From: a virus
Reading direction: 5' to 3' (one strand)
DNA: 22,491 nucleotides
IMG/VR virus record: IMGVR_UViG_3300009091_000064
Location: 1 to 22,491 of that record
Shown here: positions 3,029-21,410 of the stretch, piece after piece
Numbering within the stretch: position 1 is the first letter of the stretch
Layout: each line of letters opens with the position of its first letter
Program-made: the position numbers and the translations under genes
The notes under the pieces: model-generated
Databases searched by the model: none
The model's input: only the letters and a program-made list of their open reading frames with translations
Told to the model about the DNA's origin: nothing

Positions 3029-3043
3029 CGATTGGATTACCGT

Positions 3044-5206: not shown

Positions 5207-5574
5207 TGACCGTCCGTGAGCTGCTCGATCGCAAGTATCCCACGTGGAACTCCAACCCGCTGATGCGGGCGGCGGTCTGCACCCGGCTCATGCGTGCCGG
5301 GTACAATCTCGACGAGCACTTGCCACCGGAGTCGATCAAGGCGGCCAAGGCCATCATCCACCGAGCCAAGCAGGATCCGCCCAAGATGCACAAGGTGGAT
5401 CACCAGCGTATGGTCACCGCCGGACTGCAGGTCGGCGTCATCACCAAGGTCGTCTGCAAGGTCTGCACTCAGCCCACCATCATCGCCAAGCTCGCTACGG
5501 GCGACGACGCGTACTACTGCCCCGCGTGCAAGGCCGTAATCGGCACGCTCGCGCATCTTCAGCCTGCACTTTAG
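5203..5574 (+). CDS. Small zinc-ribbon protein downstream of terminase
   Basis: A 123-residue protein starting in the ATGA overlap with the terminase gene, preceded by GAGGAAA. The first 75 residues look helical and basic (RELLDRKYPTW..., AAKAIIHRAKQ). The C-terminal part holds a zinc ribbon: C85-x2-C88, then C106-x2-C109. The family is not recognised. Position and coupling suggest a partner of the terminase in packaging or DNA binding, perhaps filling the place of a small terminase subunit, but sequence alone does not show this. Confidence 0.85.
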   Translation: MMTVRELLDRKYPTWNSNPLMRAAVCTRLMRAGYNLDEHLPPESIKAAKAIIHRAKQDPPKMHKVDHQRMVTAGLQVGVITKVVCKVCTQPTIIAKLATGDDAYYCPACKAVIGTLAHLQPAL

Positions 5575-6020: not shown

Positions 6021-8231
6021 ATGGCGCTCTTCAAGGTGTCCACCTACGAGGGTCGCGTCAACCCCAGCAGTCGGCGGTTGGTCGCGGAGGCGTCGGAGCA
6101 GCGCAACGGCGTAGCAGTTATCCGTCGGGCCTCCGCAGACGGCAGCAAGTCTAGTACCGGTACCATCATCAAGCGCGGTGGAGTGGCCGGACCTGCCTCT
6201 ACTCCTGGCGGGGGTCTCGCCGCCCCGGGCGGTCTGCGCACGCCGTCGACCATCCGTAACCAGACCGGCAACCCCCTACTAGACAACTCGCTGGTCGACT
6301 ACTGGATCCCCATCGATCCGGTCGGGCTGCACCAGCTGTGGCGCCGCATCTACCTGCGCGATCCGATCTGCGGTCCTGCCATCGACTTCTTCCGCGAGCT
6401 ACCGTGGTCGGAGTGGACGCTGTCGGGCGTGGACGACAAGCTACTGCAGCGCTACGACGACACGCTGCATCGGATCAACCTGTTGGGGTGGTTGCCTGAG
6501 TTCTCCGGCGACTTCCTGGTGCTGGGCAAGGGCTGCCTGCACCTACTGTGGGATCGTACCAAGGGCGAGTGGAAGGATCTCATCATCCACGATCCCGACC
6601 ACATCGAAGTCAGCATCGTGCCGCTAGTCAACCAGCCCATCAAGGTGGACCTGAAGCCCACGCCCGCCCACCAAGCGTTCATTTTGTCGCCCGATCCCCG
6701 CGACCAGATGGCGCGCAAGGAGATGGACCCCAACATCATCCGCATGATCATGAGCGGGGAGCCCATTCCTCTGGATCCACGCAACACCCTGTACCTACCG
6801 CGCCGCGCGTTCCCCTACGACGTCGAAGGGGTGTCGCTGTTCTCCCGCGTCATCTACTTCGTCGCCCTCGAACGGCCGCTGTTCACTGCGTCGATCTTGG
6901 CCGCACGCCGGCGTGCCGGTCCCGTCACACACATCGCCGCGGGCAACGAAGAGTGGGAGCCAACCAACGAAGAACTGGACGCGCTCGCCCTCGCGTACAT
7001 GGAGTCCGAGGAAGATGCGGTGTCCGCCGTCTTTGCCACCCGCAACGACGTGCAGGTCAACCGCGCGGTATCGTCGCTGCAAGCTGACCTGTGGAAGATC
7101 AACGACGAATCACAGTTCATCTCGGAAGGCAAGATGCGCGCGCTGGGCATCAACGATGCCTTCCTCGCTGGCGACGCCTCCATCAATACCACCGAAGCCG
7201 CCACCTCAGTATTCCTTGAGCGCATCCGCGCCCATCGGCGGCTGATGACCGAGCGCGTGATCCAGGACAAGATCTTCAAGGAGATGGCCCGCGCCAATCG
7301 CTGGATCAAGCGCACGCCGGCCGAGATCGCCCACCACGTACGCGAGGACTCAGATGAGCAGGCGGCCCGGGACGACAAGCGGCTGGCCATTCCTATCGTC
7401 AACTGGACCAAGTCGCTCAAGCCCACCGCCGACGAGCAGCTGATCAACCTGATGCGGCAGGCGCAGGAATGGGGTCTACCCATCACCATCCGTGACCTAG
7501 CTTCAGCTACCGGTATCGACATCGACGGCGTACTCAGCGATCAGACCGAAGAGGCTGAGCTACGTACGAAGATCAAGACGTGGCAGGACACGATGCAGAA
7601 GACCGGCATCACCATCGGCGCCATGTCACCCGGCGGTGAGGGTGGGGGTGGCATGATGCCGCCGGGTGGGGGTGGCGAGATGCCCGGCATGCCGCCCGAG
7701 GGGCCACCGGCAGGCGGCGAGGCTCCCGGCGGTGAGGGCGGTGAAGCCCCCGAGGGCCTGGCGACCGCCGCCTCCTTCGGTGGTGACATTGAGGACGCGG
7801 TCCAACAACGAGTAGCGGCGTTGCCTATTTGGAACGACACGGGCCGCTGCGTCAATGTGCATCGGGATCAGCTGCGCGAGCTACTGCACCGACCTGAGAT
7901 GCAGCAGAAGCTGGCCCGTGGCATCACTTGGCAGGCACTGCAGAAGCACCTGCGGGATGGCTACACCTTCACCGAGCGCGAAACCGAGGTCATTGGCTAC
8001 GCGCTACACCGCGTCGGACTGGTACCCGACTTTGTAGTACCGCCCGGTTTCGCCCGCGCGGTCATGCAGAGTTGCGGCCGTGATCTGGATAACAACGCCG
8101 GGCTGTTCCGCGAGCTGCAGTACATGGAACGCTTCAGTACCGTACGCCGGCGCCTGGACTCCGCCGGCGCTAACGCCCGCCTCAAGCGCGAACTGGCCAT
8201 CCCCAGCCGCCGCCTCTATACCGGCTTCTAG
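6021..8231 (+). CDS. Portal protein
   Basis: A 736-residue portal protein, the dodecameric ring at the head vertex through which DNA is packaged and ejected. Support: length, position just downstream of terL, and portal-like blocks such as WIPIDPVGLHQLWRRIYLRD, the PICGPAIDFFRELPWSEW segment, an FLVLGKGCLHLLWDR strand, YLPRRAFPYD...VSLFSRVIY, and the helical LERIRAHRRLMTERVIQDKI stem region. A Gly/Pro/Met-rich flexible segment at about residues 532-580 separates the core from a C-terminal helical domain of about 150 residues, an extension beyond a minimal portal. The Shine-Dalgarno is GGGA 6 bases before ATG 6021. The specific portal family was not searched. Confidence 0.88.
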   Translation: MALFKVSTYEGRVNPSSRRLVAEASEQRNGVAVIRRASADGSKSSTGTIIKRGGVAGPASTPGGGLAAPGGLRTPSTIRNQTGNPLLDNSLVDYWIPIDPVGLHQLWRRIYLRDPICGPAIDFFRELPWSEWTLSGVDDKLLQRYDDTLHRINLLGWLPEFSGDFLVLGKGCLHLLWDRTKGEWKDLIIHDPDHIEVSIVPLVNQPIKVDLKPTPAHQAFILSPDPRDQMARKEMDPNIIRMIMSGEPIPLDPRNTLYLPRRAFPYDVEGVSLFSRVIYFVALERPLFTASILAARRRAGPVTHIAAGNEEWEPTNEELDALALAYMESEEDAVSAVFATRNDVQVNRAVSSLQADLWKINDESQFISEGKMRALGINDAFLAGDASINTTEAATSVFLERIRAHRRLMTERVIQDKIFKEMARANRWIKRTPAEIAHHVREDSDEQAARDDKRLAIPIVNWTKSLKPTADEQLINLMRQAQEWGLPITIRDLASATGIDIDGVLSDQTEEAELRTKIKTWQDTMQKTGITIGAMSPGGEGGGGMMPPGGGGEMPGMPPEGPPAGGEAPGGEGGEAPEGLATAASFGGDIEDAVQQRVAALPIWNDTGRCVNVHRDQLRELLHRPEMQQKLARGITWQALQKHLRDGYTFTERETEVIGYALHRVGLVPDFVVPPGFARAVMQSCGRDLDNNAGLFRELQYMERFSTVRRRLDSAGANARLKRELAIPSRRLYTGF

Positions 8232-9811: not shown

Positions 9812-10201
9812 ATGGACACGCCCCAGCAGATCAAGTTCCACGGGCAGCTCTACGTGCTGGCGGCCACCAAGCACAAGAAGTGCCCCAAGGGCCAGCACTG
9901 GAACGATGCCGAGCGTAAGTGCGTAAAGCTACCGGCGAGCATTGCGCACGCTAGTGCGCGGGCTTTCAAGCTGTCGGCCAGGGCCGACGCACTGCACGAT
10001 GTCGTACCGTCGGCCAAGAACGGGTGGAACCACCACAAGCTGGTGGCGCACCGCCGCGCCGTCAAGGCACACGAACACGCCTCAGCCGCGGCGTACGATA
10101 ACGGGTTCAGTACCTTGGCGCACGCGCACAGCCAGAAGCAGGATGCGCACGACGCGGTGATCAAGTCCATGACCCACTACAACCCGGATCGGGACTACTA
10201 G
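9812..10201 (+). CDS. Tagged protein 1: CPxGQHWN Cys pair plus His/Ala-rich helices
   Basis: 129 residues. The tag is IKFHGQLYVLA (residues 7-17). It is followed at once by a Cys pair, C24-PKGQHWN-x5-C37, a short motif also in the tagged protein at 12283 with identical Cys spacing. The remainder is a His/Ala-rich helical region (NHHKLVAHRRAVKAHEHASA, then HAHSQKQDAHD) like those in the genes at 12283 and 15326. The Shine-Dalgarno GAGGGA overlaps the TGA of the upstream gene. Function unknown; the His-rich helices could bind metal or pack as a helical hairpin. Confidence 0.85.
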   Translation: MDTPQQIKFHGQLYVLAATKHKKCPKGQHWNDAERKCVKLPASIAHASARAFKLSARADALHDVVPSAKNGWNHHKLVAHRRAVKAHEHASAAAYDNGFSTLAHAHSQKQDAHDAVIKSMTHYNPDRDY

Positions 10202-10209
10202 GAGCGATC

Positions 10210-10629
10210 ATGGCCGCCCCAAAGATCATCAAGTACAAAGGCCAGCTGTACCGCCGTGCTGGCTACATGGGCATGGAGCACTGGACGGCATCGGACACCG
10301 CGGCCGATCTGATGAGCGACGTGCGTGATGCGGCGGCCAAGATCCTCGCCAAGGCCATCAACGTCGATCACGGCCCCTACAACACGCCCGGCGCCATCAA
10401 CGTGCTGCTGTGTGCCGAGGCCCTGTTCGGCAAGGAAGCCATCGATCACGGTGAGGATCTGGCGGAGATCGTGGGCAAGGCCCTGAACAAGGTCATAGCG
10501 CTACGGGACAAGGCCACCCAGCAGCTGGCGAAGCTGCAGGGCGCTGACACCGACAACACCAAGGGCTTCATCAAGGATCTGAACGCGGTGGGCAAGCGCG
10601 TGGCGCGCAAGTTCGGCCTCACCTACTAG
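10210..10629 (+). CDS. Tagged protein 2: helical body
   Basis: 139 residues. The tag is IKYKGQLYRRA (7-17). The body is predicted to be nearly all helix (ADLMSDVRDAAAKILAKAI, EDLAEIVGKALNKVIALRDK, FIKDLNAVGKRVARKFG), suggesting a small bundle. One Cys and no catalytic motif were seen. The upstream TAG stop and the Shine-Dalgarno are fused (TAGGAG), with the ATG 9 bases after the G of the stop, which suggests translational coupling. Family not recognised. Confidence 0.85.
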   Translation: MAAPKIIKYKGQLYRRAGYMGMEHWTASDTAADLMSDVRDAAAKILAKAINVDHGPYNTPGAINVLLCAEALFGKEAIDHGEDLAEIVGKALNKVIALRDKATQQLAKLQGADTDNTKGFIKDLNAVGKRVARKFGLTY

Positions 10630-10637
10630 GAGCGCGC

Positions 10638-10970
10638 ATGAGCACGGTACCTACACGGATCAAGTACCAGGGCCAGATCTACAAGCTAGCGGCCACGAAC
10701 CGTCTCGGCACGCGATGGCAGTGGACCGCGCATCCCGATCCGCAGGGCGGTCCCGGTATGGTGTATGCTATCGAACTGCCGCCCAAGCATCCCAGCAACG
10801 CGTTGGCGTTTCGCGTAGCGCCGCATCCGGACGACAAGAGCAAGTGGACCTGCGACCGCCACGCCTACCTGACCTGGGAGACCTTCATCGACGGTCCCTT
10901 CGCCACGCCGCAAGCCGCCGCGCAAGCGTGCGAACAAGCGTTCAAGCAGCACAACTGGCCGAAACCCTAG
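10638..10970 (+). CDS. Tagged protein 3: small alpha/beta body
   Basis: 110 residues. The tag is IKYQGQIYKLA (8-18), one of the most typical copies. The body has aromatic beta-like segments (RWQWTAHPD, MVYAIELPP, LAFRVAPHPDDKSKWTCD, AYLTWETFIDGPFA) and a terminal helix (PQAAAQACEQAFKQH), compatible with one small alpha/beta domain. The TAGGAG stop/Shine-Dalgarno arrangement at its start matches that of the gene at 10210. Function not recognised. Confidence 0.85.
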   Translation: MSTVPTRIKYQGQIYKLAATNRLGTRWQWTAHPDPQGGPGMVYAIELPPKHPSNALAFRVAPHPDDKSKWTCDRHAYLTWETFIDGPFATPQAAAQACEQAFKQHNWPKP

Positions 10971-10980
10971 CGAGGACTTC

Positions 10981-11253
10981 ATGCGCGCACCGCAGCAGAT
11001 CAAGTACAAGGGTCACATCTACAAGCGGGCCGAGATCGATGAGAAGCGTGCCCTCGCCCTGACCACCAAACTGCTGCAGCAGCTGGGGGCGGCCAAGACC
11101 ACCGCCGAGCAGTTGGGCAAGACCTCTCCGGTTGGCACCGAGGTCACGCGGCTGTCCGAAGGCGTCATCACCGCGTTGTTGCAGGCGCAGAAGGTGCTGG
11201 GGATCAGCGCTGGCGTGCTGTGGCCGGAGCAGCGCTGGCCGAGCGGCAAGTAG
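10981..11253 (+). CDS. Tagged protein 4: small helical body
   Basis: 90 residues. The tag is IKYKGHIYKRA (6-16). The body is helical (ALALTTKLLQQLGAAKTTAE, then VTRLSEGVITALLQAQKVLG) with a short Trp/Pro end. The central S-P-x4-V/L-x2-L-x3-V pattern resembles the end of the tagged protein at 11598, so these two bodies may be distant relatives. CGAGGA lies just before the ATG. Function unknown. Confidence 0.82.
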   Translation: MRAPQQIKYKGHIYKRAEIDEKRALALTTKLLQQLGAAKTTAEQLGKTSPVGTEVTRLSEGVITALLQAQKVLGISAGVLWPEQRWPSGK

Positions 11254-11280
11254 TACCCCGCCGACAAGAAGGGACTAACT

Positions 11281-11595
11281 ATGAGCAAGGCACCGACGCA
11301 GATCAAGTACCAGGGGCGCATCTACAAGCGGGCCTTCGACGACGAAGCCATGGCGCCGGAACTGAAGTCCTTGAAGGAACTGGTAGGCCAAGCTACGCCA
11401 CCCAACGTCTTCAAGATCAAGGTGGACGGGCAGCTGCGGGTATACCGCCACGGCTCCTCAACCAGCGCCAACTTCATCGAGAAGCGGCCGGGCGTGGAGC
11501 GGTGGTCGTGCTACGACCGGGATATCCCCGCCGACAAGGCTCAGGTAGCTTGCACCACGATGATGGCCACGGCCAAGTTCTCTAGTCGGAGGTAG
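11281..11595 (+). CDS. Tagged protein 5: small alpha/beta body
   Basis: 104 residues. The tag is IKYQGRIYKRA (8-18). After a helix (APELKSLKELVGQA) comes a beta-rich part (NVFKIKVDGQLRVYRHG, ANFIEKRPGVERWSCYDRD) and a short helix. It resembles a compact single domain of unknown family. An AAGGGA Shine-Dalgarno lies in the 27-base gap. The next ATG begins 3 bases after its stop, with GGAGG inside this gene's last codons. Confidence 0.82.
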   Translation: MSKAPTQIKYQGRIYKRAFDDEAMAPELKSLKELVGQATPPNVFKIKVDGQLRVYRHGSSTSANFIEKRPGVERWSCYDRDIPADKAQVACTTMMATAKFSSRR

Positions 11596-11597
11596 CT

Positions 11598-11975
11598 ATG
11601 AGCGCGCCGCAGCTGATCAAGTACCAGGGTCAGGTCTACAAGCTGGCCACCGACGACGACACCGTCTACTGCGAGAAGTGCGGTCGGCCGCTGAGCGATG
11701 CCGAGGCCGCGGAAGCGGTCGACGTCAACCACGAGATGTGGTGCAAGCAGTGCGCGGCCAAGGCGGGCAAGCACGCGACGGTCAAGCAGGCCGATCGCGA
11801 CCTGCAGGCCACTCGGGAGCTAGAGAAGGCCTTGATGCAGGCCAGCAGTGAAGCCGTACACCTCCTGCACTCGCAATCGCCGACCAGTGAGCTGGCCAAG
11901 CTAGGCAAGGAGGTCGCAGCTCATCTCGGCGCAGCGATCAATCTGGTGATCAGCTTTCAGGACAAGCACAAGTAG
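11598..11975 (+). CDS. Tagged protein 6: zinc ribbon plus helical bundle
   Basis: 125 residues. The tag is IKYQGQVYKLA (7-17). A zinc-binding CxxC-x20-CxxC follows (C25, C28, C49, C52; YCEKCGRPL, then MWCKQCAAKAG), like a treble-clef or zinc-ribbon finger. The rest is helical (ADRDLQATRELEKALMQASS, then SELAKLGKEVAAHLGAAINL). A structural zinc in a small cargo protein could mean nucleic-acid or protein binding; no specific function is shown. It is tightly coupled to the preceding gene. Confidence 0.86.
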   Translation: MSAPQLIKYQGQVYKLATDDDTVYCEKCGRPLSDAEAAEAVDVNHEMWCKQCAAKAGKHATVKQADRDLQATRELEKALMQASSEAVHLLHSQSPTSELAKLGKEVAAHLGAAINLVISFQDKHK

Positions 11976-11982
11976 TCCAACC

Positions 11983-11998
11983 CGCCGCTGCGGCGGCG
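11983..11998 (+). other. GC hairpin in gap before the gene at 12016
   Basis: CGCCGC (11983-11988) pairs with GCGGCG (11993-11998) around a TGCG loop, 8 bases after the TAG of the tagged zinc-ribbon gene. Only two T residues follow directly, so it is at most a weak terminator or an RNA-processing or attenuation element. Confidence 0.35.
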
Positions 11999-12015
11999 TT
12001 GAAGGGAGACGATCC

Positions 12016-12267
12016 ATGGCGAACGGTAACGGCAACAAGATGTACAAGATCGACAGCACGAAGGCCCTGCCCTCGTTCGGCAGCAAGCCAGGCGCCGGCA
12101 AGGGCAGCACCGGGCAGCGCAGCGTCCACGACAGCTTCAAGGTGGCTCCCGGCGCTGCGGTCCCGCCCAAGCCGCCCAAGGGCATCAACCCCAACGCGCC
12201 CGGCAGCGCCAACAAGGTCTACACCAGCAAGCCGGGCATCGCCGGGCCGCTGCCGCGCAACAAGTAG
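12016..12267 (+). CDS. Small basic low-complexity protein without tag
   Basis: 83 residues, rich in Gly, Pro, Lys, Ser and Ala (SFGSKPGAGKGSTGQRS, APGAAVPPKPPKGINPNAPG), probably disordered. No tag, Cys or catalytic motif is present. AAGGGAGA precedes the ATG at good spacing, supporting translation. It is one of two untagged genes in the array. A scaffold-, DNA- or capsid-binding peptide is possible; function unknown. Confidence 0.75.
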   Translation: MANGNGNKMYKIDSTKALPSFGSKPGAGKGSTGQRSVHDSFKVAPGAAVPPKPPKGINPNAPGSANKVYTSKPGIAGPLPRNK

Positions 12268-12268
12268 T

Positions 12269-12299
12269 ACTCCAGGATCGCGGTGCGTACTCCTGGAGT
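12269..12299 (+). promoter_or_regulatory. Inverted repeat enclosing ribosome binding site and GTG start
   Basis: ACTCCAGGA (12269-12277) and TCCTGGAGT (12291-12299) form a perfect 9-bp inverted repeat with a 13-base loop. The Shine-Dalgarno AGGA (12274-12277) is in the 5' arm and the GTG start codon (12283-12285) is in the loop. The RNA hairpin could mask the ribosome binding site, opened when upstream ribosomes translate across it or by a regulator. Confidence 0.5.
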
Positions 12300-12762
12300 C
12301 ATTGCGTACCGTGGCTATCGCTACGTGCTAGCTACTGAGCACGCGCGGTGTCCTACGGGCCAGCACTGGAACGAGCCGCAGCATAAGTGCTGGCCGGTTG
12401 CGGGCTACCTGCCGTCGGGTAAGCCGGTGTTCGTACCCAAAGGCCTCGGAGTGATGACCCGCCTGCATCGTGATGCGCTGGCTATGGAAGGCGACATCTA
12501 CGCACAGCGACAGATGGTAGGCTTGCGACGACTGGTGTATAAGGATGCGCGCAAGCACGTCGCACGCCATCACGATGACTTCTCCCATCGTGACCACTTG
12601 GATGCGCGGAATCTGTACTACCGCAAGGCCAAGGACGCACGGGCGGCAGGCAAGCCGGCCCAAGCCAAGGCATACCACAGCCTGGGGTTGGCGCACGAGC
12701 AGCATTCGGTAGATAAGCTACTACGGGTAGCGCCCCAGTTGGTGCACGAGGTCATGCGGTAA
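12283..12762 (+). CDS. Tagged protein 7: CPxGQHWN Cys pair plus His/Ala-rich helices
   Basis: 159 residues from a GTG start. The tag is the divergent IAYRGYRYVLA (7-17). A Cys pair follows, C23-PTGQHWN-x5-C36, then GYLPSGKPVFVPKG, which parallels the SGKPIYAP segment in the gene at 15326, then a long helical part with DDFSHRDHLDARNLYYRKAK and AKAYHSLGLAHEQH. That part belongs with the His/Ala-rich bodies at 9812 and 15326. The start lies inside the hairpin at 12269-12299. Its TAA stop overlaps the next ATG (TAATG). Confidence 0.84.
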   Translation: MRTPGVIAYRGYRYVLATEHARCPTGQHWNEPQHKCWPVAGYLPSGKPVFVPKGLGVMTRLHRDALAMEGDIYAQRQMVGLRRLVYKDARKHVARHHDDFSHRDHLDARNLYYRKAKDARAAGKPAQAKAYHSLGLAHEQHSVDKLLRVAPQLVHEVMR

Positions 12763-13043
12763 TGCTACCCCGCACGATCCGCTACCACGGTATGCGCTAC
12801 CATCTGCACACCGGCCTATTTGGGCTGGGGGCGCCGGCCGTGCAGCCCGACTGGACGGTGGCCTACCAGAGCGCCGCGGAGTTGCAGAAGCAGGCGTACA
12901 AGTTGTACCGCGCGGCGCAAGAACTGCAGCGGCAGATAACGCAGCAGACCCCCATGGCCAAGCGCCTGGGGCTGCGAGTGCAGACCCAGCTAGCACAGCT
13001 GGTCGAGCAGCTGAAGCAGGTACTGCAACACACCCCAGTGTAG
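12762..13043 (+). CDS. Tagged protein 8: divergent tag, Gln-rich helical body
   Basis: 93 residues. The divergent tag IRYHGMRYHLH (5-15) keeps Pro, Ile, Tyr, Gly and Tyr but lacks the final Ala. The body is helical and Gln-rich (SAAELQKQAYKLYRAAQELQ, then TQLAQLVEQLKQVLQ), a plausible coiled-coil hairpin. It starts in a TAATG overlap, so it is probably translated by re-initiation. Function unknown. Confidence 0.8.
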   Translation: MLPRTIRYHGMRYHLHTGLFGLGAPAVQPDWTVAYQSAAELQKQAYKLYRAAQELQRQITQQTPMAKRLGLRVQTQLAQLVEQLKQVLQHTPV

Positions 13044-13053
13044 GAGTGCGACC

Positions 13054-13344
13054 ATGAGCACCACAGCACCGACGCACATCAAGTACCGCGGCCAGCTGTA
13101 TCGCCGGGCGGATGCCGGGCAGTATGCCACCCCCGCGGCCGGGATGATCCGCGCGCTGACGGCCCCGGGGTTTCGCAACGTGAAAGCCGACGTGATCGCC
13201 AGCTTCATCGAATATGGCAACGCGGGTGGCCCGCCGATCCCGCCTGCTACTCGCCTGGCTCAGGTGAACGCCGCCGCCAAGTTGCTGCGGGATCTGGTCT
13301 TGCACTACGGCGAGATGCAGGCGGCGGAACGCGACGAGTTGTAG
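13054..13344 (+). CDS. Tagged protein 9: small mostly helical body
   Basis: 96 residues. The tag is IKYRGQLYRRA (8-18). The body has helices (AAGMIRALTAPGF, VKADVIASFIEYGN, LAQVNAAAKLLRDLVLHYGE) around a Gly/Pro turn. No Cys or catalytic residues stand out. The gene follows a TAGGAG fused stop/Shine-Dalgarno and ends at another. Function not recognised. Confidence 0.83.
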   Translation: MSTTAPTHIKYRGQLYRRADAGQYATPAAGMIRALTAPGFRNVKADVIASFIEYGNAGGPPIPPATRLAQVNAAAKLLRDLVLHYGEMQAAERDEL

Positions 13345-13352
13345 GAGTATCC

Positions 13353-13706
13353 ATGAGCCTGACACCAGCGCAGATCAAGTACCGAGGCCGCATCTACAAG
13401 CAGGCGGCCGTGCGCATCTCCAAGCTACGGGTGGACGACAGCCACCGCGCCGGCGGCGCCGAGCAGACCAGTCGGCTGTTCGTCTGGATCGACAACGAGA
13501 AGGTGCTCGACAACCTGCACGACCGGTACAAGCGACCGTGGCAGTTGTGGAAGGCCGAGGTGCTGCCACAGGTCTTCAAGCGGCTGAAGCTGCCGCGGGA
13601 CACCCTGACCAAGTGGTCCCAGACCGCCGGCTGCAGTTGTGGTTGCAGTCCCGGCTTCATCGTCTACGACGGCAAGAATCAGGACTACCACGTGTTCGTG
13701 AGCTAA
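13353..13706 (+). CDS. Tagged protein 10: GCSCGCSPGF-containing body
   Basis: 117 residues. The tag is IKYRGRIYKQA (8-18). The body begins with RLFVWIDNEKVLDNL, then a basic helix (LPQVFKRLKLPRDTLTKW), then the striking GCSCGCSPGFIVYDG (C94, C96, C98) and a final strand. This Cys-rich signature seems familiar from other phage hypothetical proteins, but I cannot name a family. Clustered Cys suggests metal binding. The start follows a TAGGAG junction. Confidence 0.85.
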   Translation: MSLTPAQIKYRGRIYKQAAVRISKLRVDDSHRAGGAEQTSRLFVWIDNEKVLDNLHDRYKRPWQLWKAEVLPQVFKRLKLPRDTLTKWSQTAGCSCGCSPGFIVYDGKNQDYHVFVS

Positions 13707-13717
13707 CCGAGGTTGTC

Positions 13718-14089
13718 ATGCGCACAGCACCGAAGCAGGTCAAGTATCGCGGGCAGATCTACAAGCTAGCCACGCCCACCGATCCCATTGACGTGTGGAT
13801 CGCGGCCAATGGCAACGTGCTAGCCCGGTCCCTGGCTAAGCTACTGCAGCAACAGCTAGAGCGGGCGTACGACTTCAAGTTCGAGCCGCACCACGCGCAG
13901 ATGCTGCCGCAGTTCCTGCAGTGGGTGCTGTTCGCGCTGCCCAACGCGCCCGCGCCGGCCGGCTTGCCCCCGTACCTCAGAAACCGCGCCAGGGTGCTAG
14001 ACGGTCTACGTACCTGGGCTGACGACGCCTACGCGGTAGTGCTGGGCAGCGAACTAGATCCTGAGACCGGCGAGCCGAAGCAGAAGTGA
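13718..14089 (+). CDS. Tagged protein 11: helical body
   Basis: 123 residues. ATG 13718 is chosen because the tag (VKYRGQIYKLA, 8-18) begins right after it and CGAGG lies upstream, although the frame is open farther upstream inside the previous gene. The body is helical and Leu/Gln-rich (ARSLAKLLQQQLERAYDFKF, QMLPQFLQWVLFALPNAP, RARVLDGLRTWADDAYAVVL). No motif of known function is present. Confidence 0.83.
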   Translation: MRTAPKQVKYRGQIYKLATPTDPIDVWIAANGNVLARSLAKLLQQQLERAYDFKFEPHHAQMLPQFLQWVLFALPNAPAPAGLPPYLRNRARVLDGLRTWADDAYAVVLGSELDPETGEPKQK

Positions 14090-14096
14090 GGCGTTG

Positions 14097-14480
14097 GTGA
14101 CGCAACCAGCCATACTGCTATATCAGGGCCAGGAGTACGTTCGGGTAGCGTCGCTACCCGGGCCGCACGATCTGTACCTGACACCGCACGGGAGTGGGCT
14201 GGAAGTGTACGTGCCAGATGCGACGCATCCCGACGGTATCATGATCGGGTACACGCAGCCGGTCCCTCACCCCCGGCACATCAAGCTGCCAGAGTTGTGG
14301 AGCTTCAAGCCCGACGGCAAGCCCGCGTGGTGGGGACCGCTGACGCGGCTGGAAACCCGCGATCCCACTACCGATCCGCGGGACTTCTTGCAGGAGCTGA
14401 AGAAGATGCACGCCGTCGCCGACGCCATCACTGGCGTGTGGCTGTGGCCCGAGAATCAGCCGCCGCGAAAACTGTTGTAG
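14097..14480 (+). CDS. Tagged protein 12: divergent tag, Pro/Trp-rich body
   Basis: About 127 residues from GTG 14097; TTG 14094 is possible but too close to the GAGG at 14088-14091. The tag is divergent, LLYQGQEYVRV, and the usual Lys/Arg after the first aliphatic is Leu. The body is rich in Pro, His and Trp (DLYLTPHGSGLEVYVPD, LPELWSFKPDGKPAWWG) with a C-terminal helix (RDFLQELKKMHAVADAI). Function unknown. Its TAG runs into GGGAGA before the protease gene. Confidence 0.78.
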   Translation: MTQPAILLYQGQEYVRVASLPGPHDLYLTPHGSGLEVYVPDATHPDGIMIGYTQPVPHPRHIKLPELWSFKPDGKPAWWGPLTRLETRDPTTDPRDFLQELKKMHAVADAITGVWLWPENQPPRKLL

Positions 14481-14490
14481 GGAGACCGTC

Positions 14491-15294
14491 ATGCTCTACG
14501 CACCGGAAGACATCCTGGCAGGACCAAGCATCCGCAAGACCTCGGACTTCGCGGATAGCTACCACCTGTTCGCCCAGGCGGGCATGCCCGTAGTGCGCAC
14601 CTTCGATCTGCACTACTTCAAGACCGAGCAGGACATGACGGGCAACCTGCGGCTGGCCGATGCGCAGGGCTTCAAGGTGCCGTACGACCGGCCGGTGGAT
14701 CTGTCGCGGCTCAAGATCGCGGCCGAGACCTACAACATCAGCCCCGACTACCGCGACTACATCGCGTCCGAAGTACCCATCGTCACCGCCGACGTGCCCA
14801 ACCGCAACATGGACGCGTTCTCGTTCTCCGAGCTGACCTTCTACAACCCGCTGTACGGCTGCTGCTCGTACCAGACGTTCGTGGGCAAGGGCGTGCACCT
14901 GCAGCACGACAACCAGGATCCGAAGAAGGCCAAGGGCATCATCCTCGATGCCGCCATGCGCAAGGTGGGGCACAACTGGCACGTGATGATCCTGCTAGCG
15001 TGCGACCGCACCAAGGATCGCCAGCTGGTCGAGGAGATCGTGCGCAACCCCATCACCGGGTGGTCGATGGGCGCGCTGGTGTCGTACACCACCTGCTCCG
15101 TGTGTGGCTTCCGCTCCAACGGTAAGGTGTTCTGCGAACCGCACATCGGCCGCAACGGGTCGAAGAAGGGCCGCATCTTCGACGGTCGCATCGCCTACGA
15201 GCAGTGCCACCTCGTCAACTTCATCGAGACCAGCAAGGTCAAGAACCCCGCTGACATCAACGCCTACTCGGAAGAGAAGCTCTTCCTGGCCTGA
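14491..15294 (+). CDS. Prohead (capsid maturation) protease
   Basis: 267 residues. The pattern fits the serine-type head maturation proteases of tailed phages (T4 gp21-like / HK97-type assemblin fold): a His in GVHLQHDN (H136/H139), then a Ser in ITGWSMGALV (S192) about 50 residues later, and a closing FIETSKVKNPADINAYS block. Such enzymes cleave scaffold, capsid and internal proteins during maturation. Unusual is a putative zinc site right after the catalytic Ser: C202-x2-C205-x9-C215-x2-H218. It carries no tag but sits within the tagged array, upstream of the scaffold-like and capsid genes. GGGAGA precedes ATG 14491. Catalytic residues are assigned by pattern only. Confidence 0.85.
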   Translation: MLYAPEDILAGPSIRKTSDFADSYHLFAQAGMPVVRTFDLHYFKTEQDMTGNLRLADAQGFKVPYDRPVDLSRLKIAAETYNISPDYRDYIASEVPIVTADVPNRNMDAFSFSELTFYNPLYGCCSYQTFVGKGVHLQHDNQDPKKAKGIILDAAMRKVGHNWHVMILLACDRTKDRQLVEEIVRNPITGWSMGALVSYTTCSVCGFRSNGKVFCEPHIGRNGSKKGRIFDGRIAYEQCHLVNFIETSKVKNPADINAYSEEKLFLA

Positions 15295-15325: not shown

Positions 15326-15730
15326 ATGAGCACACCGCAGCAGATCAAGTACCAGGGGCAGATCTACGTGTTGGCGGCTGAAGGGCCAGTCACCGTCGGC
15401 CCGCGGGGTGGGAAGATCATCGGCAAGACCAAGAGCGGCAAGCCGATCTACGCGCCATCGTCAGACATCGTGGGGCGCGGGGCCTACGTCGTACCTACGG
15501 AGTTGTCGCAGGCGCACATGGCCCAGCATGCGGACTTTACCGCAGCTGATCACCGCGACGCCGCTGCGCTGCACACCCAGCACGAGGCGCGCCATCGGGC
15601 ACTGGCGATAAAGCACCTGGGGCAGGATAACCCGGACAGCATCCAGCGGGGCTACCGGCACATGGACCGGGCGTCGGCGCACAGCCATGTTGCCTACCTC
15701 CACCAGCAGCAGGCCAAGGCCAGTAAGTGA
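15326..15730 (+). CDS. Tagged protein 13: GPRGGK segment plus His/Ala-rich helices
   Basis: 134 residues. The tag is IKYQGQIYVLA (7-17). Residues about 22-44 hold VTVGPRGGKIIGKTKSGKP and then IYAP, a short module I have seen in phage head-associated proteins, but I cannot assign a function. A His/Ala-rich helical region follows (HADFTAADHRDAAALHTQHE, then HMDRASAHSHVAYLHQQQAK), matching the D-F-x3-D-H-x-D-A pattern of the gene at 12283. AGGAG lies 9 bases before ATG 15326. Confidence 0.86.
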   Translation: MSTPQQIKYQGQIYVLAAEGPVTVGPRGGKIIGKTKSGKPIYAPSSDIVGRGAYVVPTELSQAHMAQHADFTAADHRDAAALHTQHEARHRALAIKHLGQDNPDSIQRGYRHMDRASAHSHVAYLHQQQAKASK

Positions 15731-15740
15731 CGAGGCTACC

Positions 15741-16250
15741 ATGACCGCACCGCGAACCCTCCGCTACCAAGGGCAACTGTATGTACGCGCGCAGCTGGAC
15801 TCGCCGGCGGCGTGGTTTGCTGACCTCGTCACCGCGTGTCGCGGCAAGCCGTTCAAGCCGGTGGGCAACGAGCGCAAGGCCGTGATCGGGCAGTTCGGTG
15901 GCGCCGCTGTGCACGTCGCGCTTCTAGAGGACTTCGTGGTGGTAGACATGGCCTTTGGCCGAGTGTACCACATGTGGCAGAACCGCACGCACGTAGCCGA
16001 GGACGGCATGGTCGAGGCCAGTGGTGGCTGGTCCGCCGAGATGGGCGATACGCCACCCACCGAATGGGATCTAACCGGCTTGCACGGCGGCGGGCGTACC
16101 AGCGCGGGTAGCGGTAAGATCACAGTGACCAACGGTCAAGAGCTGCTGGGACACATGGTGTCGTGGAAGACCAAGCTGAAGCGCTACTCGGCGAAGGGCG
16201 ACTTCGGCAACCTCATGGAGCAGAAGGAACACGCCCAGCGCGGCTGGTGA
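15741..16250 (+). CDS. Tagged protein 14: larger alpha/beta body
   Basis: 169 residues, the longest N-terminally tagged member. ATG 15741 is chosen because the tag follows (LRYQGQLYVRA, 7-17) and CGAGG precedes. The body has beta-rich segments (KAVIGQFGGAAVHVALLEDF, VVVDMAFGRVYHMWQNRTHV), a Gly/Thr-rich loop and a basic C-terminal helix. No family is recognised. Its tag is closest to those at 16255 and at the C-terminus of the peptidase at 17245 (APRTL type). Confidence 0.84.
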   Translation: MTAPRTLRYQGQLYVRAQLDSPAAWFADLVTACRGKPFKPVGNERKAVIGQFGGAAVHVALLEDFVVVDMAFGRVYHMWQNRTHVAEDGMVEASGGWSAEMGDTPPTEWDLTGLHGGGRTSAGSGKITVTNGQELLGHMVSWKTKLKRYSAKGDFGNLMEQKEHAQRGW

Positions 16251-16254
16251 CAGC

Positions 16255-16548
16255 ATGCTCGCCCCCAAGACCCTACGCTACCAGGGGCAGCTGTACGTGA
16301 TGGCGTCGTGGGAGACGGGCCTCACGCCCCAGCAGATCGAGGGCATCAAGTCGCTCAAGCCGGTCTCGATTAGCACCGATCCCAAGGAGGGCGCCATCTT
16401 GGTGTGGCTGCGCTCCGAGCGGGAGTGTGAGCGCGCGGCCGATCACTTTGACCTGCACAAGTACGAGTTCAACGAGGTGGAAGTTCGCCTCAGTTGTGCT
16501 GCCACCAACTGGGAACCTACCCACCTAGCGCTGTACCCGCGAACGTAG
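16255..16548 (+). CDS. Tagged protein 15: small alpha/beta body
   Basis: 97 residues. The tag is LRYQGQLYVMA (7-17). The body shows a helix (TPQQIEGIKSLKPV), a strand (GAILVWLRSE), a helix (RECERAADHFDLH) and a strand (FNEVEVRLSCAATNW), a likely two-layer alpha/beta domain. It starts 5 bases after the preceding TGA with no strong Shine-Dalgarno, so it probably depends on coupling. Function unknown. Confidence 0.82.
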   Translation: MLAPKTLRYQGQLYVMASWETGLTPQQIEGIKSLKPVSISTDPKEGAILVWLRSERECERAADHFDLHKYEFNEVEVRLSCAATNWEPTHLALYPRT

Positions 16549-16556
16549 GAGTCGCC

Positions 16557-16853
16557 ATGCGCACCCCAACCCAGATCAAGTATCGGGATCGCATCTACAA
16601 GCGTGCCGAAGGTGACTGGCCACTCCCGTGGAAGCGCATCGCGGCCAACTCGTGGGAGTATGAGGGCCGCCGCGCGCACGTCATCGCACGGCAGGGAAAA
16701 CCGGGGTACTACGACTTGACCGCTACCGCCGGCGGCGTCACCTTCTACACCGCCCGCAAGCTGTTCGCCCCCAGTTCCGCTACCGTATGGCATCTGCAGC
16801 ACCTGGGCGAGTTCATCGGCTCGCAGGGACCGTGGCTAGGGCATGGAGCGTAG
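16557..16853 (+). CDS. Tagged protein 16: small beta-rich body
   Basis: 98 residues from ATG 16557, after a TAGGAG junction. The tag IKYRDRIYKRA (7-17) is the only copy in which the turn Gly is replaced (Asp). The body is beta-like (WEYEGRRAHVIARQGKPGYY, LTATAGGVTFYTARK) with a helical end (SATVWHLQHLGEFIG). Function not recognised. It ends 3 bases before the next start. Confidence 0.82.
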   Translation: MRTPTQIKYRDRIYKRAEGDWPLPWKRIAANSWEYEGRRAHVIARQGKPGYYDLTATAGGVTFYTARKLFAPSSATVWHLQHLGEFIGSQGPWLGHGA

Positions 16854-16855
16854 AC

Positions 16856-17248
16856 ATGACCGCACCGACACAGATCAAGTACCGGGGTAAGCTGTATCGC
16901 CTGGCGGCGTCGACTCCGGCGCCGTATCCCCGTTCGCCCAAGGAAGTCATGGTGGGCGTCAATCAGATGCATGCAGGGTTGTCACCGCTAGCCACGGCGC
17001 TTGCGGCAATGAAGGTCCATACGGAGCAGCTTAGTCGGCTGCTGTGGCAGATCGAGCAAATTGCTACCGATCCTTACCGCAAGATCTACAAGGATTGGCC
17101 GCAACGGGGAGAGGGCGAGTCCAAAGACCCACGAGCGCACTTCGTGGCCATGGGCGAGGTCATCGACCAGTTCAACGAAGCCAGCGACAAGCTGAAGGCC
17201 GTGCTCAAGAAGAACTTCGCCAAGGTCGAGTACCTGGCCGGCAAGTGA
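16856..17248 (+). CDS. Tagged protein 17: helical body
   Basis: 130 residues from ATG 16856. The tag is IKYRGKLYRLA (6-16). The body is helical (KEVMVGVNQMHAGLSPLATA, QLSRLLWQIEQIATDPYRK, VIDQFNEASDKLKAVLKKNF), like a four-helix or coiled-coil unit. The Shine-Dalgarno GGAG lies just before the TAG of the previous gene. Its stop overlaps the GTG start of the metallopeptidase (GTGA), so the two are probably translationally coupled. Function unknown. Confidence 0.84.
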   Translation: MTAPTQIKYRGKLYRLAASTPAPYPRSPKEVMVGVNQMHAGLSPLATALAAMKVHTEQLSRLLWQIEQIATDPYRKIYKDWPQRGEGESKDPRAHFVAMGEVIDQFNEASDKLKAVLKKNFAKVEYLAGK

Positions 17249-17772
17249 GTTCTACCTACTCCATCGTACGTGATCTACCCTCCGGCCACCACCCACTACT
17301 GACGGTACTCCCCGACCTCGCCACCTGTCCGCTACTGCCGCACATCGTGGGCCGCCGCCGCGACCTGCTAGCGCAAGTGGTGGTGCACATCACACCGTCA
17401 CCGTGCATCTGCCACGTCGATACTACCGAACCCAGCATCGTCATCGATCCCAGCTACTACCACACAGCAACCCCCGCAGACCTGTACTTGGATGTGCTGC
17501 ACGAGTTGACGCATCTGCGGCAACACCTAGACGGGCAGGACATCTGGGACGACCACCTGCCGTACGAACAGCGGCCCACTGAGATTGAGGCGTTCGCGAT
17601 CGCAGTGCTGGAAGCCCAGCGGCGCGGCCTGTCGGAGGCGGCAATCCTGGCCTACCTACGTCAACCGTGGCTGACGGAAGTTGCCGTGCAGCAGCTGCGC
17701 GCCAACATCGCCACGTTTCTAGCGCCTCGCACCCTCCTACGGCAGGGGCAGTGCTACCGCCGGCGCGGGTAG
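17245..17772 (+). CDS. HExxH metallopeptidase-like protein with C-terminal tag
   Basis: 175 residues from GTG 17245, which overlaps the upstream TGA; the longer open frame upstream runs through the previous gene and is rejected. LDVLHELTHLRQH contains the zinc motif H86-E87-x2-H90, and a downstream TEIEAFA (E113/E115) could give the third ligand, as in gluzincin-type peptidases. No signal peptide or membrane segment is seen. The last 16 residues (APRTLLRQGQCYRRRG) match the APRTL-type tag found at the N-terminus of the gene at 15741; this is the only copy at a C-terminus. Substrate unknown: a virion cargo peptidase, a maturation factor or an injected effector are all possible. Confidence 0.8.
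   Translation: MSSTYSIVRDLPSGHHPLLTVLPDLATCPLLPHIVGRRRDLLAQVVVHITPSPCICHVDTTEPSIVIDPSYYHTATPADLYLDVLHELTHLRQHLDGQDIWDDHLPYEQRPTEIEAFAIAVLEAQRRGLSEAAILAYLRQPWLTEVAVQQLRANIATFLAPRTLLRQGQCYRRRG
17722..17769 (+). repeat. C-terminal copy of the array tag
   Basis: These 16 codons encode the final residues of the metallopeptidase-like protein. Compared with the tag at 15741 (APRTLRYQGQLYVRAQ), identities are A, P, R, T, L, Q, G, Q, Y and R; the first Tyr is Arg and the final Ala is Arg. A remnant of a decayed downstream tagged gene fused in frame is another explanation. Confidence 0.6.
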
Positions 17773-17959: not shown

Positions 17960-19342
17960 ATGGCCAAGGACAAGAAGCTGAAGAAGAAGATCCAGAAGAC
18001 GGCAGCCGCCGACCTCGACATCGATGTGCTGCAGTCCAAGCGTGCAGACGAAGTGCCGCCCCCGCCGGCGGACGACCAGGGCATCGTCACGCCGCCCGAG
18101 TCCGAAGTCACGGCACTACCGGATGACGACGAGTCGTCCGACGACAGCAGCGACGACAGCAGTGAGCAGCCCGCACCAGTCGCCGCCGATGATGACGACA
18201 GCGACAGCGACGACGAGGACGCGGAGGAGTCCGCCGCGGGTCCGACCTACGCCGGTCCCGAGGTGCAGGAAGGCGATCCCAACCAGTCCCAGGCGCCGGC
18301 TAGCCCCGCCGCCCCGGGCGCGACGCCGCCCGTCGATCCGGGTGCCGCCAGCGACAGCAGCAGCGGCAGTGACCTGTCGGTGAGCAGCGACGAGATGGGC
18401 GCGCAGCAGCCCGGCGTCGGCGGCCCCGTAGACGATCCGACTACGCCGATTCCGGCCGAGGCGGGTGTGGATGAGATGATCATCCATCCTATCGCGGAGG
18501 TGCTGGACGAGAAGACGGCGTCACTGGAGATGTTCCTGTTCGACGCGCAGGGCAAGAACCCGGCGTGGATGGTCATCGCCAACGGCGACCCCTACGCCAA
18601 GATCTGCCTCACCGATCAGGAGAACCCGGAGCTGATCCGCCAGGCGTTCTGCGCGGACAGCTACGCCGACACCGTCATGGCCAATGCCAAGAAGCTGGGC
18701 ATGATGACGGTGCTGGCCGACGTCAAGGCCCGCTTCTACCACGCGCAGATCTTCAAGTCGCAGCTGGCCGAGACCCTCACCAAGAAGATCACGGCGAACG
18801 TCGAGAAGCGCGTCGCCACCGCCAACGACAAGTACAACGAGCGTGTTGCCGAGATGATGCACCTCGTCGTCAAGGCCGCCTCGGTCAACTTCTTCAAGGA
18901 TCCCGATCCGCTCAAGGCCGCCATGGTACAGGTCATGCGCGCCGCCGGCGTGGCCGATCCGACCGCCGCCATCGAGCAGCTGTTCGCGACCCACGCCCCC
19001 GAGTGGTTCAAGCGCGTGCTGGCCAAGGCCACCGAGTGGACCACCTTCGCCCCCGACGCCATGAAGCAGATCCGCGCCTCCATCGATGACATGGGCGTGC
19101 GCAGCGTCGACTACGTCGCCGCCGCGGCGCAGGATGCGCGGGATACCGCACGCCACGAAGTGGCCGCGCCGACGTCGATGGCGCTGGGCGTGCCCCTGGT
19201 CACCCAGGGACACCACAGCCGCAGCCTCGCGCCGCAGTCGGCCGGGGCGCGCGTGGCCGCCACGTCGGAGGAAGAGCAGCTGCGGCAGCAGTACCGCACG
19301 CGGCTCCAAGGACTCCGCCAGTCTCGCCGTACCGGCGAGTAG
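17960..19342 (+). CDS. Probable scaffolding / prohead core protein
   Basis: 460 residues. A short Lys-rich N-terminus (KDKKLKKKIQK) is followed by about 150 residues of acidic, Ser/Asp/Pro/Ala low-complexity sequence. A structured helical part comes next (LEMFLFDAQGKNPAWMVIAN, LAETLTKKITANVEKRVATA, YNERVAEMMHLVVKAASV), and a basic tail ends in RTRLQGLRQSRRTGE. Acidic and coiled-coil-rich composition, a basic C-terminus and the position between the protease and major capsid genes fit a scaffold that is degraded or expelled at maturation. No sequence family is recognised, so the role is inferred from context. It has the strongest ribosome binding site in the window. Confidence 0.65.
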   Translation: MAKDKKLKKKIQKTAAADLDIDVLQSKRADEVPPPPADDQGIVTPPESEVTALPDDDESSDDSSDDSSEQPAPVAADDDDSDSDDEDAEESAAGPTYAGPEVQEGDPNQSQAPASPAAPGATPPVDPGAASDSSSGSDLSVSSDEMGAQQPGVGGPVDDPTTPIPAEAGVDEMIIHPIAEVLDEKTASLEMFLFDAQGKNPAWMVIANGDPYAKICLTDQENPELIRQAFCADSYADTVMANAKKLGMMTVLADVKARFYHAQIFKSQLAETLTKKITANVEKRVATANDKYNERVAEMMHLVVKAASVNFFKDPDPLKAAMVQVMRAAGVADPTAAIEQLFATHAPEWFKRVLAKATEWTTFAPDAMKQIRASIDDMGVRSVDYVAAAAQDARDTARHEVAAPTSMALGVPLVTQGHHSRSLAPQSAGARVAATSEEEQLRQQYRTRLQGLRQSRRTGE

Positions 19343-19487
19343 GCACACCAGGATTTCCAGCTTTACCCCCAGGTTTAAGCCGCATTACTCGTAAGGCTGA
19401 ATTACCCACACGTTACCGTCGGCAGCCGCACCGCCTCACCCGCTTTACCGTCGTGATTAAGTCGCACGCTCCGTCATGGAGGACCAC

Positions 19488-20249
19488 ATGCTGAATCAAG
19501 CTGGGAAGAACATCTTTTCGGTGATGCAGGAGCTGCCGCTCTCCGCGGGAGTATCCGAGGTGTTCGAGGGCATGGCCCTCATCGCCGACAACACCGGAAC
19601 CGAGGTCTACGCCAAGCCGTCCACCGGCGCCAAGGGTGAGCAGTTCCTGGGCGTCGCGCTGGTCAACGCGCTGAAGGTGGTGGACCTGCCCATCGTCGAA
19701 TCGCTCATCGCGATTCTGCAGCCTCCGGCTGGCCCCAACACGCAGGTCACGCTCAGCCGCACGCCTACGGGCGCGCCGCCAGAGCTGACCGGCTACGTGG
19801 GCACGCCGGCCACCATCGTCACCTTCACCCTGCTCGCGGGCACCACCTACCAGACCGATCTCGCTGGCCCAGTTCCGGTGCCGGCGGGTACGGCGGTGAT
19901 CTGCTCGTACACCTACCAGCCGACCCTGGCTGAGGTGCTGGCGGTGTTCCACCAGAGCGCCATCAACTTCGAGAACGTCAACGCGCTGCTGTCGCAGATC
20001 AGCGTGGGTGGCGGCGTCAACTCGGAGTTCCAGACCATGCAGTACATCAACACTCCGGGCGTCAACTACACGCTCGGCGGCCCGGTGTACCTGGGACCGA
20101 ACGGCAAGTTCTCGGCGGACCCCGGCATCGCGCCGGCGACGCAGGTGGGCGTCTGCATCAAGCTGCCGACCCCATCTACCACGCCGTTGGCGCTCAGCGA
20201 TGAGCGCTACCTCGGAGTGAAGGTCACGGCGCCGCCGTCCATCCCGTAA
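19488..20249 (+). CDS. Probable capsid decoration / minor head protein
   Basis: 253 residues. ATG 19488 is preferred over 19476 because GGAGG (19478-19482) lies 5 bases before it and would sit inside the longer reading. The N-terminal part (EGMALIADNTGTEVYAKPST, then QFLGVALVNA) resembles small beta-rich decoration proteins that sit before capsid genes. The middle is Thr/Pro/Gly-rich and beta-like (VTFTLLAGTTYQTDLAGPVP). The end repeats a similar beta pattern (LGPNGKFSADPGIAPATQVG). It lies directly upstream of the major capsid gene. No enzyme motif is present. The family was not verified. Confidence 0.6.
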   Translation: MLNQAGKNIFSVMQELPLSAGVSEVFEGMALIADNTGTEVYAKPSTGAKGEQFLGVALVNALKVVDLPIVESLIAILQPPAGPNTQVTLSRTPTGAPPELTGYVGTPATIVTFTLLAGTTYQTDLAGPVPVPAGTAVICSYTYQPTLAEVLAVFHQSAINFENVNALLSQISVGGGVNSEFQTMQYINTPGVNYTLGGPVYLGPNGKFSADPGIAPATQVGVCIKLPTPSTTPLALSDERYLGVKVTAPPSIP

Positions 20250-20276
20250 CCGCGAGCCTGGGACAAGGAGACGATG

Positions 20277-21410
20277 ATGAGCTACCAAGTGACTCCCGTA
20301 ACCAAGAAGAACCTCCCGGCCCGCCCGATGGCGGCCTCCTTCAACCCCCGCTCCGGGTCGTTCCAGACCTCGGAGCGCGAGCCCGCGTGGAACGACGCTG
20401 GCGAGTTCAACGCCAGCTCCAAGCAGGAGCTGACCACCCGCATCGCGCAGATGATCGATGCCTTCCAGAAGGGTGAGCTGAAGACGGCGCACACCGAGGT
20501 GGGCGAGCAGGATGAGGCGCAGCTGCGCGCCGCGGATCTGCAGGAAGCGTACCACGACCCGACCGGGCAGAAGATGAAGGTGCTCGGTGACACCGTGGTC
20601 GAGGAGCTGGTCGAAGTCGGCAAGCGCGAAGGCTTCACGCGCACTCTGTGGGGTGTGCAGCGCGTGCCGCAGGGCCAGGATGGCAAGGTCCGCATCCGCT
20701 ACAAGCAGGCCGTCGCCATCGTTGCCACTTCCGCCACCACCGTGCGCGCGGTGCGGTGGAAGGAGCGCTACATCCGGCCGCCGGTGTACTACCTCAACGC
20801 CAACCTCCTGATCGAGGACGTCGAGGTTCGCCTCTCCCCCGTGGGCATCATGGAGGAGATGTTCGAAGACGGCCTGGAAGCGCTGATGGTCACCGAGGAC
20901 AAGCTGTCGGTCAAGTTCCTCAACGCGCTGAACGGCATCTTCAACGTGCCCATCGGCATCCCCGGCCAGCTGTCGCCGGAGATCTGGGCGCGCCTCAAGT
21001 CGGGCATCGAGGGCTTCGGCAACCCCGCGGCCACCGCGGTGATGTCGTACGACTTCTGGCCGGACATCCACGCCAGCACGTCGTTCACCGGCGGCGCCAC
21101 GGGCGGCGGCTACTTCGATCCGGTCACCAAGTACCAGCTGGTGCTGGAAGGCCGCCTCGGCAGCCTCATGGGCGTCAACATCATCACCGACGCCTTCCGC
21201 GAGCCGAAGCTGCGCGTCCTCACCGAGGGCCAGATCTACATGGTGGCCCCGCCGAACGTCCTGGGCGTCATCACGCAGCACCAGGAGCTGACGCCGTATC
21301 AGGTCGACCTGCGCAACCAGGGCCAGCCGGTGCAGGGCTGGTTCTTGGAGCAGCTGCAGGGTCAGGTGGCGCAGAACCCGCGCGCGGTCTACGCGGCGTT
21401 CCGCGTCTAG
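20277..21410 (+). CDS. Major capsid protein (HK97-fold-like)
   Basis: 377 residues. ATG 20277 has AAGGAG at 6-base spacing; ATG 20274 is the alternative (3-base spacing). An N-terminal polar region of about 60 residues (PVTKKNLPARPMAASFNPRS onward) could be the cleaved delta-like segment. It is followed by a TLWGVQRVPQGQDGKVRIRY N-arm/E-loop-like region, RPPVYYLNANLLIEDVEVRL, a long helical spine (GIMEEMFEDGLEALMVTEDK) and a LGSLMGVNIITDAFREP core common in HK97-fold capsids. Leu codon CTA is absent here although common in neighbouring genes, as expected for a very highly expressed gene. A strong terminator follows. Confidence 0.85.
   Translation: MSYQVTPVTKKNLPARPMAASFNPRSGSFQTSEREPAWNDAGEFNASSKQELTTRIAQMIDAFQKGELKTAHTEVGEQDEAQLRAADLQEAYHDPTGQKMKVLGDTVVEELVEVGKREGFTRTLWGVQRVPQGQDGKVRIRYKQAVAIVATSATTVRAVRWKERYIRPPVYYLNANLLIEDVEVRLSPVGIMEEMFEDGLEALMVTEDKLSVKFLNALNGIFNVPIGIPGQLSPEIWARLKSGIEGFGNPAATAVMSYDFWPDIHASTSFTGGATGGGYFDPVTKYQLVLEGRLGSLMGVNIITDAFREPKLRVLTEGQIYMVAPPNVLGVITQHQELTPYQVDLRNQGQPVQGWFLEQLQGQVAQNPRAVYAAFRV

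Follow-up and report, generated by a model that had tools for sequence, protein, structure and literature searches.

A head maturation protease with a putative zinc knuckle amid seventeen commonly tagged genes of an uncultured phage

Introduction

Which kind of protease sits in the middle of an array of small genes sharing one N-terminal tag, and whether this enzyme acts on the tags, is the question raised by a virus record of 22,491 bases (the window), a fragment of an uncultured phage that is known here from its sequence alone. A first-pass annotation of this DNA had read the central ORF as a prohead protease carrying a putative zinc site beside its catalytic Ser and had suggested that the enzyme removes the tags, for example near a conserved Ala or Ala-Ala at residues 16-18.

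Results

The ORF at 14491-15294 begins with ATG, encodes 267 aa and is placed between the portal and capsid genes of a head module with the following features:

3032-5206, plus strand, terminase large subunit (PHROG 17415, E = 2e-137)
6021-8231, plus strand, portal protein (PHROG 16240, E = 7e-100)
9812-14480, plus strand, upstream arm of the array with 12 small tagged ORFs (starts 9812, 10210, 10638, 10981, 11281, 11598, 12283, 12762, 13054, 13353, 13718 and 14094) and an untagged 83-aa ORF (12016)
14491-15294, plus strand, head maturation (prohead) protease (PHROG 18299, PaBG match, Foldseek, triad)
14491-14685, plus strand, N-terminal extension of the protease, residues 1-65, variable and without tag (pLDDT below 50, alignment)
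15094-15144, plus strand, putative zinc knuckle C202-x2-C205-x9-C215-x2-H218 (ligand census in 30 homologues)
15326-17248, plus strand, downstream arm with 5 tagged ORFs (starts 15326, 15741, 16255, 16557 and 16856)
17245-17772, plus strand, ORF with a metallopeptidase-like HELTHLRQH motif
17960-19342, plus strand, probable scaffold/core protein, acidic, pI 4.5 (position as in the related loci L003 and L038; PHROG 20988 weak, E = 6.5e-5)
19476-20249, plus strand, virion structural protein (PHROG 16710, E = 7e-7)
20274-21410, plus strand, major capsid protein with a candidate maturation site, LQE/A, after residue 91 (PHROG 2522, E = 3.5e-43)

The product of the protease ORF matches PHROG 18299 (head maturation protease) at E = 4e-53; Pfam scans with it gave no significant match, and a PDB search with it as single sequence gave no match. 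By tblastn, 307 phage records match the protease, the nearest isolate being Pseudomonas phage PaBG, to which 81% of the protein aligns at 39.6% identity, followed by phages of Vibrio, Dickeya, Erwinia, Pseudomonas putida, Burkholderia, Xanthomonas and Rhizobium as well as mycobacterial phages. The terminase, portal and capsid genes also have their matches, about 33% identical, in PaBG-like large phages; capsid and terminase queries in IMG/VR found no relatives.

An AlphaFold2 model of the protease, built on 11 sequences (the window and IMG/VR loci only), has a core at residues 66-258 with most blocks at pLDDT values of 80-90, preceded by residues 1-65, which are modelled as disordered and may possibly be a targeting region or propeptide. 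When the model was compared with the PDB by Foldseek, T4 gp21 chains (5jbl) ranked first with a probability of 0.98-0.99 (E = 0.006, TM 0.53 by target length) and other solved structures came far behind, whereas the viral library returned proteins of PaBG, phiRSL1, Pupper and Bacillus phage G, phage head proteases being prominent among the named matches. At the sequence level, profile comparison connects the protease only weakly to T4 gp21 and HK97 gp4, so that the link to these two enzymes rests on fold and motifs.

The motifs GVHLQHDN (residues 134-141), GWSMGAL (190-196) and C202-x2-C205-x9-C215-x2-H218 are all present exactly as first described. In an alignment of 30 homologues, many of them only about 30% identical to the window protein, H139, S192 and E246 are each conserved in 30/30 and, given this conservation, the motifs are not due to chance. 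E246 is the probable third catalytic residue, although Asp takes this place in T4 gp21 and SPN3US gp245 (PMC5694885); the protease motif E-x-S-x-V-x-x-P-A parallels E-I-S-V-C-T-F-P-A of HK97 gp4. By family, fold, triad and synteny within the head module, the product of 14491-15294 belongs to the phage head maturation serine proteases, which bears out the initial reading.

The four Cys/His residues are located in an insertion in the loop between Ser192 and Glu246. C202 and C215 are found in all 30 homologues and C205 in 29 (His in L003), the fourth ligand being His in 27 and Cys in three, so that four Cys/His ligands are kept in 30/30 with exchange in both directions, a degree of conservation equal to that of the catalytic residues. 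Such exchange of His and Cys is typical of metal sites. The common spacing among the homologues is C-x2-C, a variable stretch and C-x-H, with one extra residue before His in the window. Run against the PDB, the protease profile is drawn to zinc fingers, with a best E value of 0.013 that is not significant by itself, and the knuckle region of the AlphaFold2 model is of lower confidence, with a mean pLDDT of about 70. Homologues lacking the four ligands, named at first pass as the evidence that would speak against a zinc site, were looked for among the 30 and none was found. Zinc is therefore strongly suggested as the metal of the knuckle on the ground of this exchange. The expectation that a zinc-stabilized maturation protease would be unusual is not supported, however, because the knuckle is general in its family (307 matching phage records), which counts cluster C mycobacteriophages among its members and Bacillus phage G as a more distant one.

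In the actinobacterial phages Pier, Pupper, Myrna, Finch and E3 (L014, L015, L017, L018 and L047), proteins of roughly 900-1240 residues have the zinc-knuckle protease as their N-terminal domain; their annotations read tape measure, hypothetical protein or protease.

As first described, the protease is embedded in a tagged array: 17 small ORFs around it, 12 upstream and five downstream, begin with a common 17-residue tag, which the protease itself does not carry. The tags follow the consensus (A/T)-P-x-x-I-K-Y-x-G-Q-(I/L)-Y-x-x-A, in which the first P and the second Y are invariant and the first Y, the G and the A almost invariant; synonymous codons vary, indicating that the tag is conserved as protein and not as DNA. 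Conservation stops abruptly at residue 17, after the Ala, and the bodies beyond are mostly unrelated, with 13-28% identity to the first sequence in a gap-filled alignment and no common signal. Regarding the Ala or Ala-Ala at residues 16-18, the single Ala held up in 15/17 tags, whereas Ala-Ala occurs in only five. In AlphaFold2 models of the 17 proteins, the tag is a beta-hairpin with strands at 6-9 and 12-15 and a mean pLDDT of 82-89. Values of pI above 8 are found for 14 of the 17 proteins but for only 10 of 17 when the tag is left out, so that the basic character of the cargo depends mainly on the tag. Most tagged bodies have no database relatives, and one carries a zinc ribbon. A short common N-terminus on unrelated head-region proteins, as in the capsid-targeting sequence (CTS) of T4 type, is thus found in 17 ORFs; judged by where it lies, its modularity and the example of T4, the tag is most likely a CTS. 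The tagged set is unusually large for a head operon.

Zinc-ribbon-like CxxC pairs are found in two small proteins (5203-5574 and 11598-11975), one of them tagged. The tagged ORFs 9812 and 12283 both have CPxGQHWNxxxxKC right after the tag, likely by duplication. The C-terminus of the ORF with the HELTHLRQH motif is weakly tag-like (APRTLLRQGQCYRRRG, codons from 17722); its tag-profile score was 16.9, and since one of 20 shuffles reached 20.7, this copy is suggestive only. A search of IMG/VR for the tag by degenerate DNA gave five stretches, none of them an N-terminal tag, and tblastn with the tag peptide in phages gave no match. The tag pattern was found in 60 stretches of genome contigs, with one match each and hence without an array.

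The window and L038 have in common the gene order terminase-portal-(small ORFs)-protease-(small ORFs)-scaffold-structural-capsid, and L003 has the same order without the small ORFs. In L038, three otherwise unrelated ORFs start with the 15 residues MSIK(E/K)VI(A/E)KYxxxAS, different from the window tag; two of these copies (7963, and 9380 in ORF 9335) lie just upstream of the protease and the third (232939) about 23 kb off. In L034, ORFs 10822 and 11223, directly downstream of the protease, start with RxxIAxVLRAAAxALD. These N-termini would fit lineage-specific targeting sequences, by analogy to those reviewed for T4 (PMC9026906).

The proteases of T4, phiKZ and SPN3US all cut after Glu (PMC9026906, PMC10052503), T4 gp21 after L/I-x-E (PMC9026906) and SPN3US gp245 at AXE (PMC10052503). 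Among the 17 tags, no common Glu P1 site of the T4-type CTS is found at the tag end: AXE ends 2/17 tags, a Glu follows within three residues of the tag Ala in 5/17, and an L/I/F/V/M/A-x-E-small site lies within the first 45 residues of 2/17 tagged proteins. On these counts (2/17 and 2/17), T4-type Glu sites were rejected as the common place of tag cutting, and neither the scaffold nor the tagged proteins are enriched in T4-type cleavage sites. In the capsid protein, LQE/A after residue 91 aligns with LREA, ALAEA and similar sequences in relatives; as P1 is Glu in about half of the aligned relatives, this site is a candidate only. During maturation, about 20% of the PaBG capsid protein is lost (PMC7412058); cleavage behind AAE81 or LRE89, taking off 21-24%, would be compatible with this value.

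Discussion

The closest known counterpart is the putative prohead core protease of PaBG (PaBG_00226), which has the same triad and the same Cys-Cys-Cys-His knuckle; in contrast to the window, however, its gene is remote from those for portal and capsid, and no tagged array surrounds it. T4 gp21 (5jbl) has in common with the window protease an NRN motif before the catalytic His and a place in the head operon near scaffold and capsid genes, but no knuckle is found in its sequence and its third residue is Asp by published alignment (PMC5694885). In HK97 gp4 (S78-type), NHK, S-V-G and E-I-S-x-x-x-x-P-A parallel H-x-N, S-M-G and E-T-S-x-V-x-x-P-A of the window protease, yet only 27 residues separate Ser and Glu, compared to 54 in the window, and a knuckle is lacking. 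As to the tag, IPI-III and Alt of T4 similarly have a short common N-terminus on different, often basic small head proteins (PMC9026906), the CTS-bearing proteins of T4 being both variable and basic (PMC9026906). The T4 CTS, however, is only about 10 residues long and has a Glu cleavage site at its end, whereas the window tag is a 17-residue hairpin without such a site and, unlike the CTS, is present on 17 genes around the protease.

We propose, with a probability of roughly 0.6, that the zinc-knuckle protease and the hairpin-tagged cargo are built into the prohead core together, the 17-residue tag serving as CTS. The enzyme would be the protease of a PaBG-like large phage, of T4 gp21/HK97 gp4 type and with a triad of His139, Ser192 and Glu246. 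From its position in the chain between the Ser and Glu strands, the knuckle would probably stabilize the active-site wall or provide a contact in protease assembly or with the core. The protease would be packed in the prohead core with the small cargo proteins, which the beta-hairpin tag would send into the head as the CTS does in T4, and once the shell is assembled it would trim the capsid and core proteins, a cleavage proposed by analogy; head targeting by the tag and action of the protease on any given substrate are thus predicted steps of this scheme.

Several other explanations bear on the knuckle and the tag. For the former, the four residues might be structural or redox cysteines outside any metal site, and the zinc-finger matches of the protease profile, not being significant, would allow this. 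Nevertheless, the knuckle spacing C-x2-C...C-x-H recurs in nearly all homologues and exchange from C to H and from H to C always keeps four ligands, which makes a metal-free explanation very improbable.

For the tag, the first-pass proposal was that the protease removes every copy at a common site after the conserved Ala, freeing mature internal proteins. T4 gp21 does take off CTS propeptides (PMC9026906), conservation ends sharply at Ala in 15/17 tags and the common N-terminus of L038 likewise ends in Ala-Ser, but the known relatives cut after Glu, which most tags lack at their end (AXE in 2/17), and the residues following Ala are not conserved. As the tags have no common Glu site, their common removal is doubtful, even though the Glu-P1 rule is taken from T4 and SPN3US and may not be the specificity of this branch. 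Alternatively, the tag could be a permanent docking hairpin binding portal, scaffold or capsid, with the protease a neighbor only by way of the head operon. The fairly confident hairpin model and the missing Glu-P1 site are in line with permanent docking, as are the 24 head protein N-termini of SPN3US that stay intact (PMC10052503); in T4, on the other hand, the same layout is tied to removal of the targeting peptide (PMC9026906), and we consider permanent docking a tentative option that deserves to be kept in view. A third view would take the tagged ORFs as diverged paralogues unrelated to the head and the hairpin as the remnant of an ancestral domain. Similarity beyond the tag in 9812 and 12283 and the many bodies without a database function would agree with this, whereas the other bodies have no common signal at 13-28% identity, the tag stops sharply at residue 17 in front of unrelated bodies and every copy lies inside the head operon, so that shared descent of this kind appears improbable. 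Returning to the CTS reading, it might be extended to a modular head loading system, in which members of the zinc-knuckle protease family work with interchangeable N-terminal hairpin or helix tags that each lineage has as its own, in the present phage the 17-residue hairpin, which 17 accessory proteins carry and which the core would recognize and the protease might cleave with non-Glu specificity; in this full form, we regard the extension as rather unlikely.

While the prohead protease is ordinary in kind, its family-wide zinc knuckle is unmentioned in the open papers covered by a full-text search, subscription papers being mostly outside that scope. With ligands as conserved as the catalytic residues, the knuckle suggests that a structural or regulatory element absent from T4 gp21 and HK97 gp4 is built into a protease family spanning hundreds of phage genomes. 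If the tag is a head-loading signal, it would supply a short loading peptide, and 17 accessory proteins could enter the host together with the DNA, T4 IPI, a restriction inhibitor, being an example of what head cargo can do.
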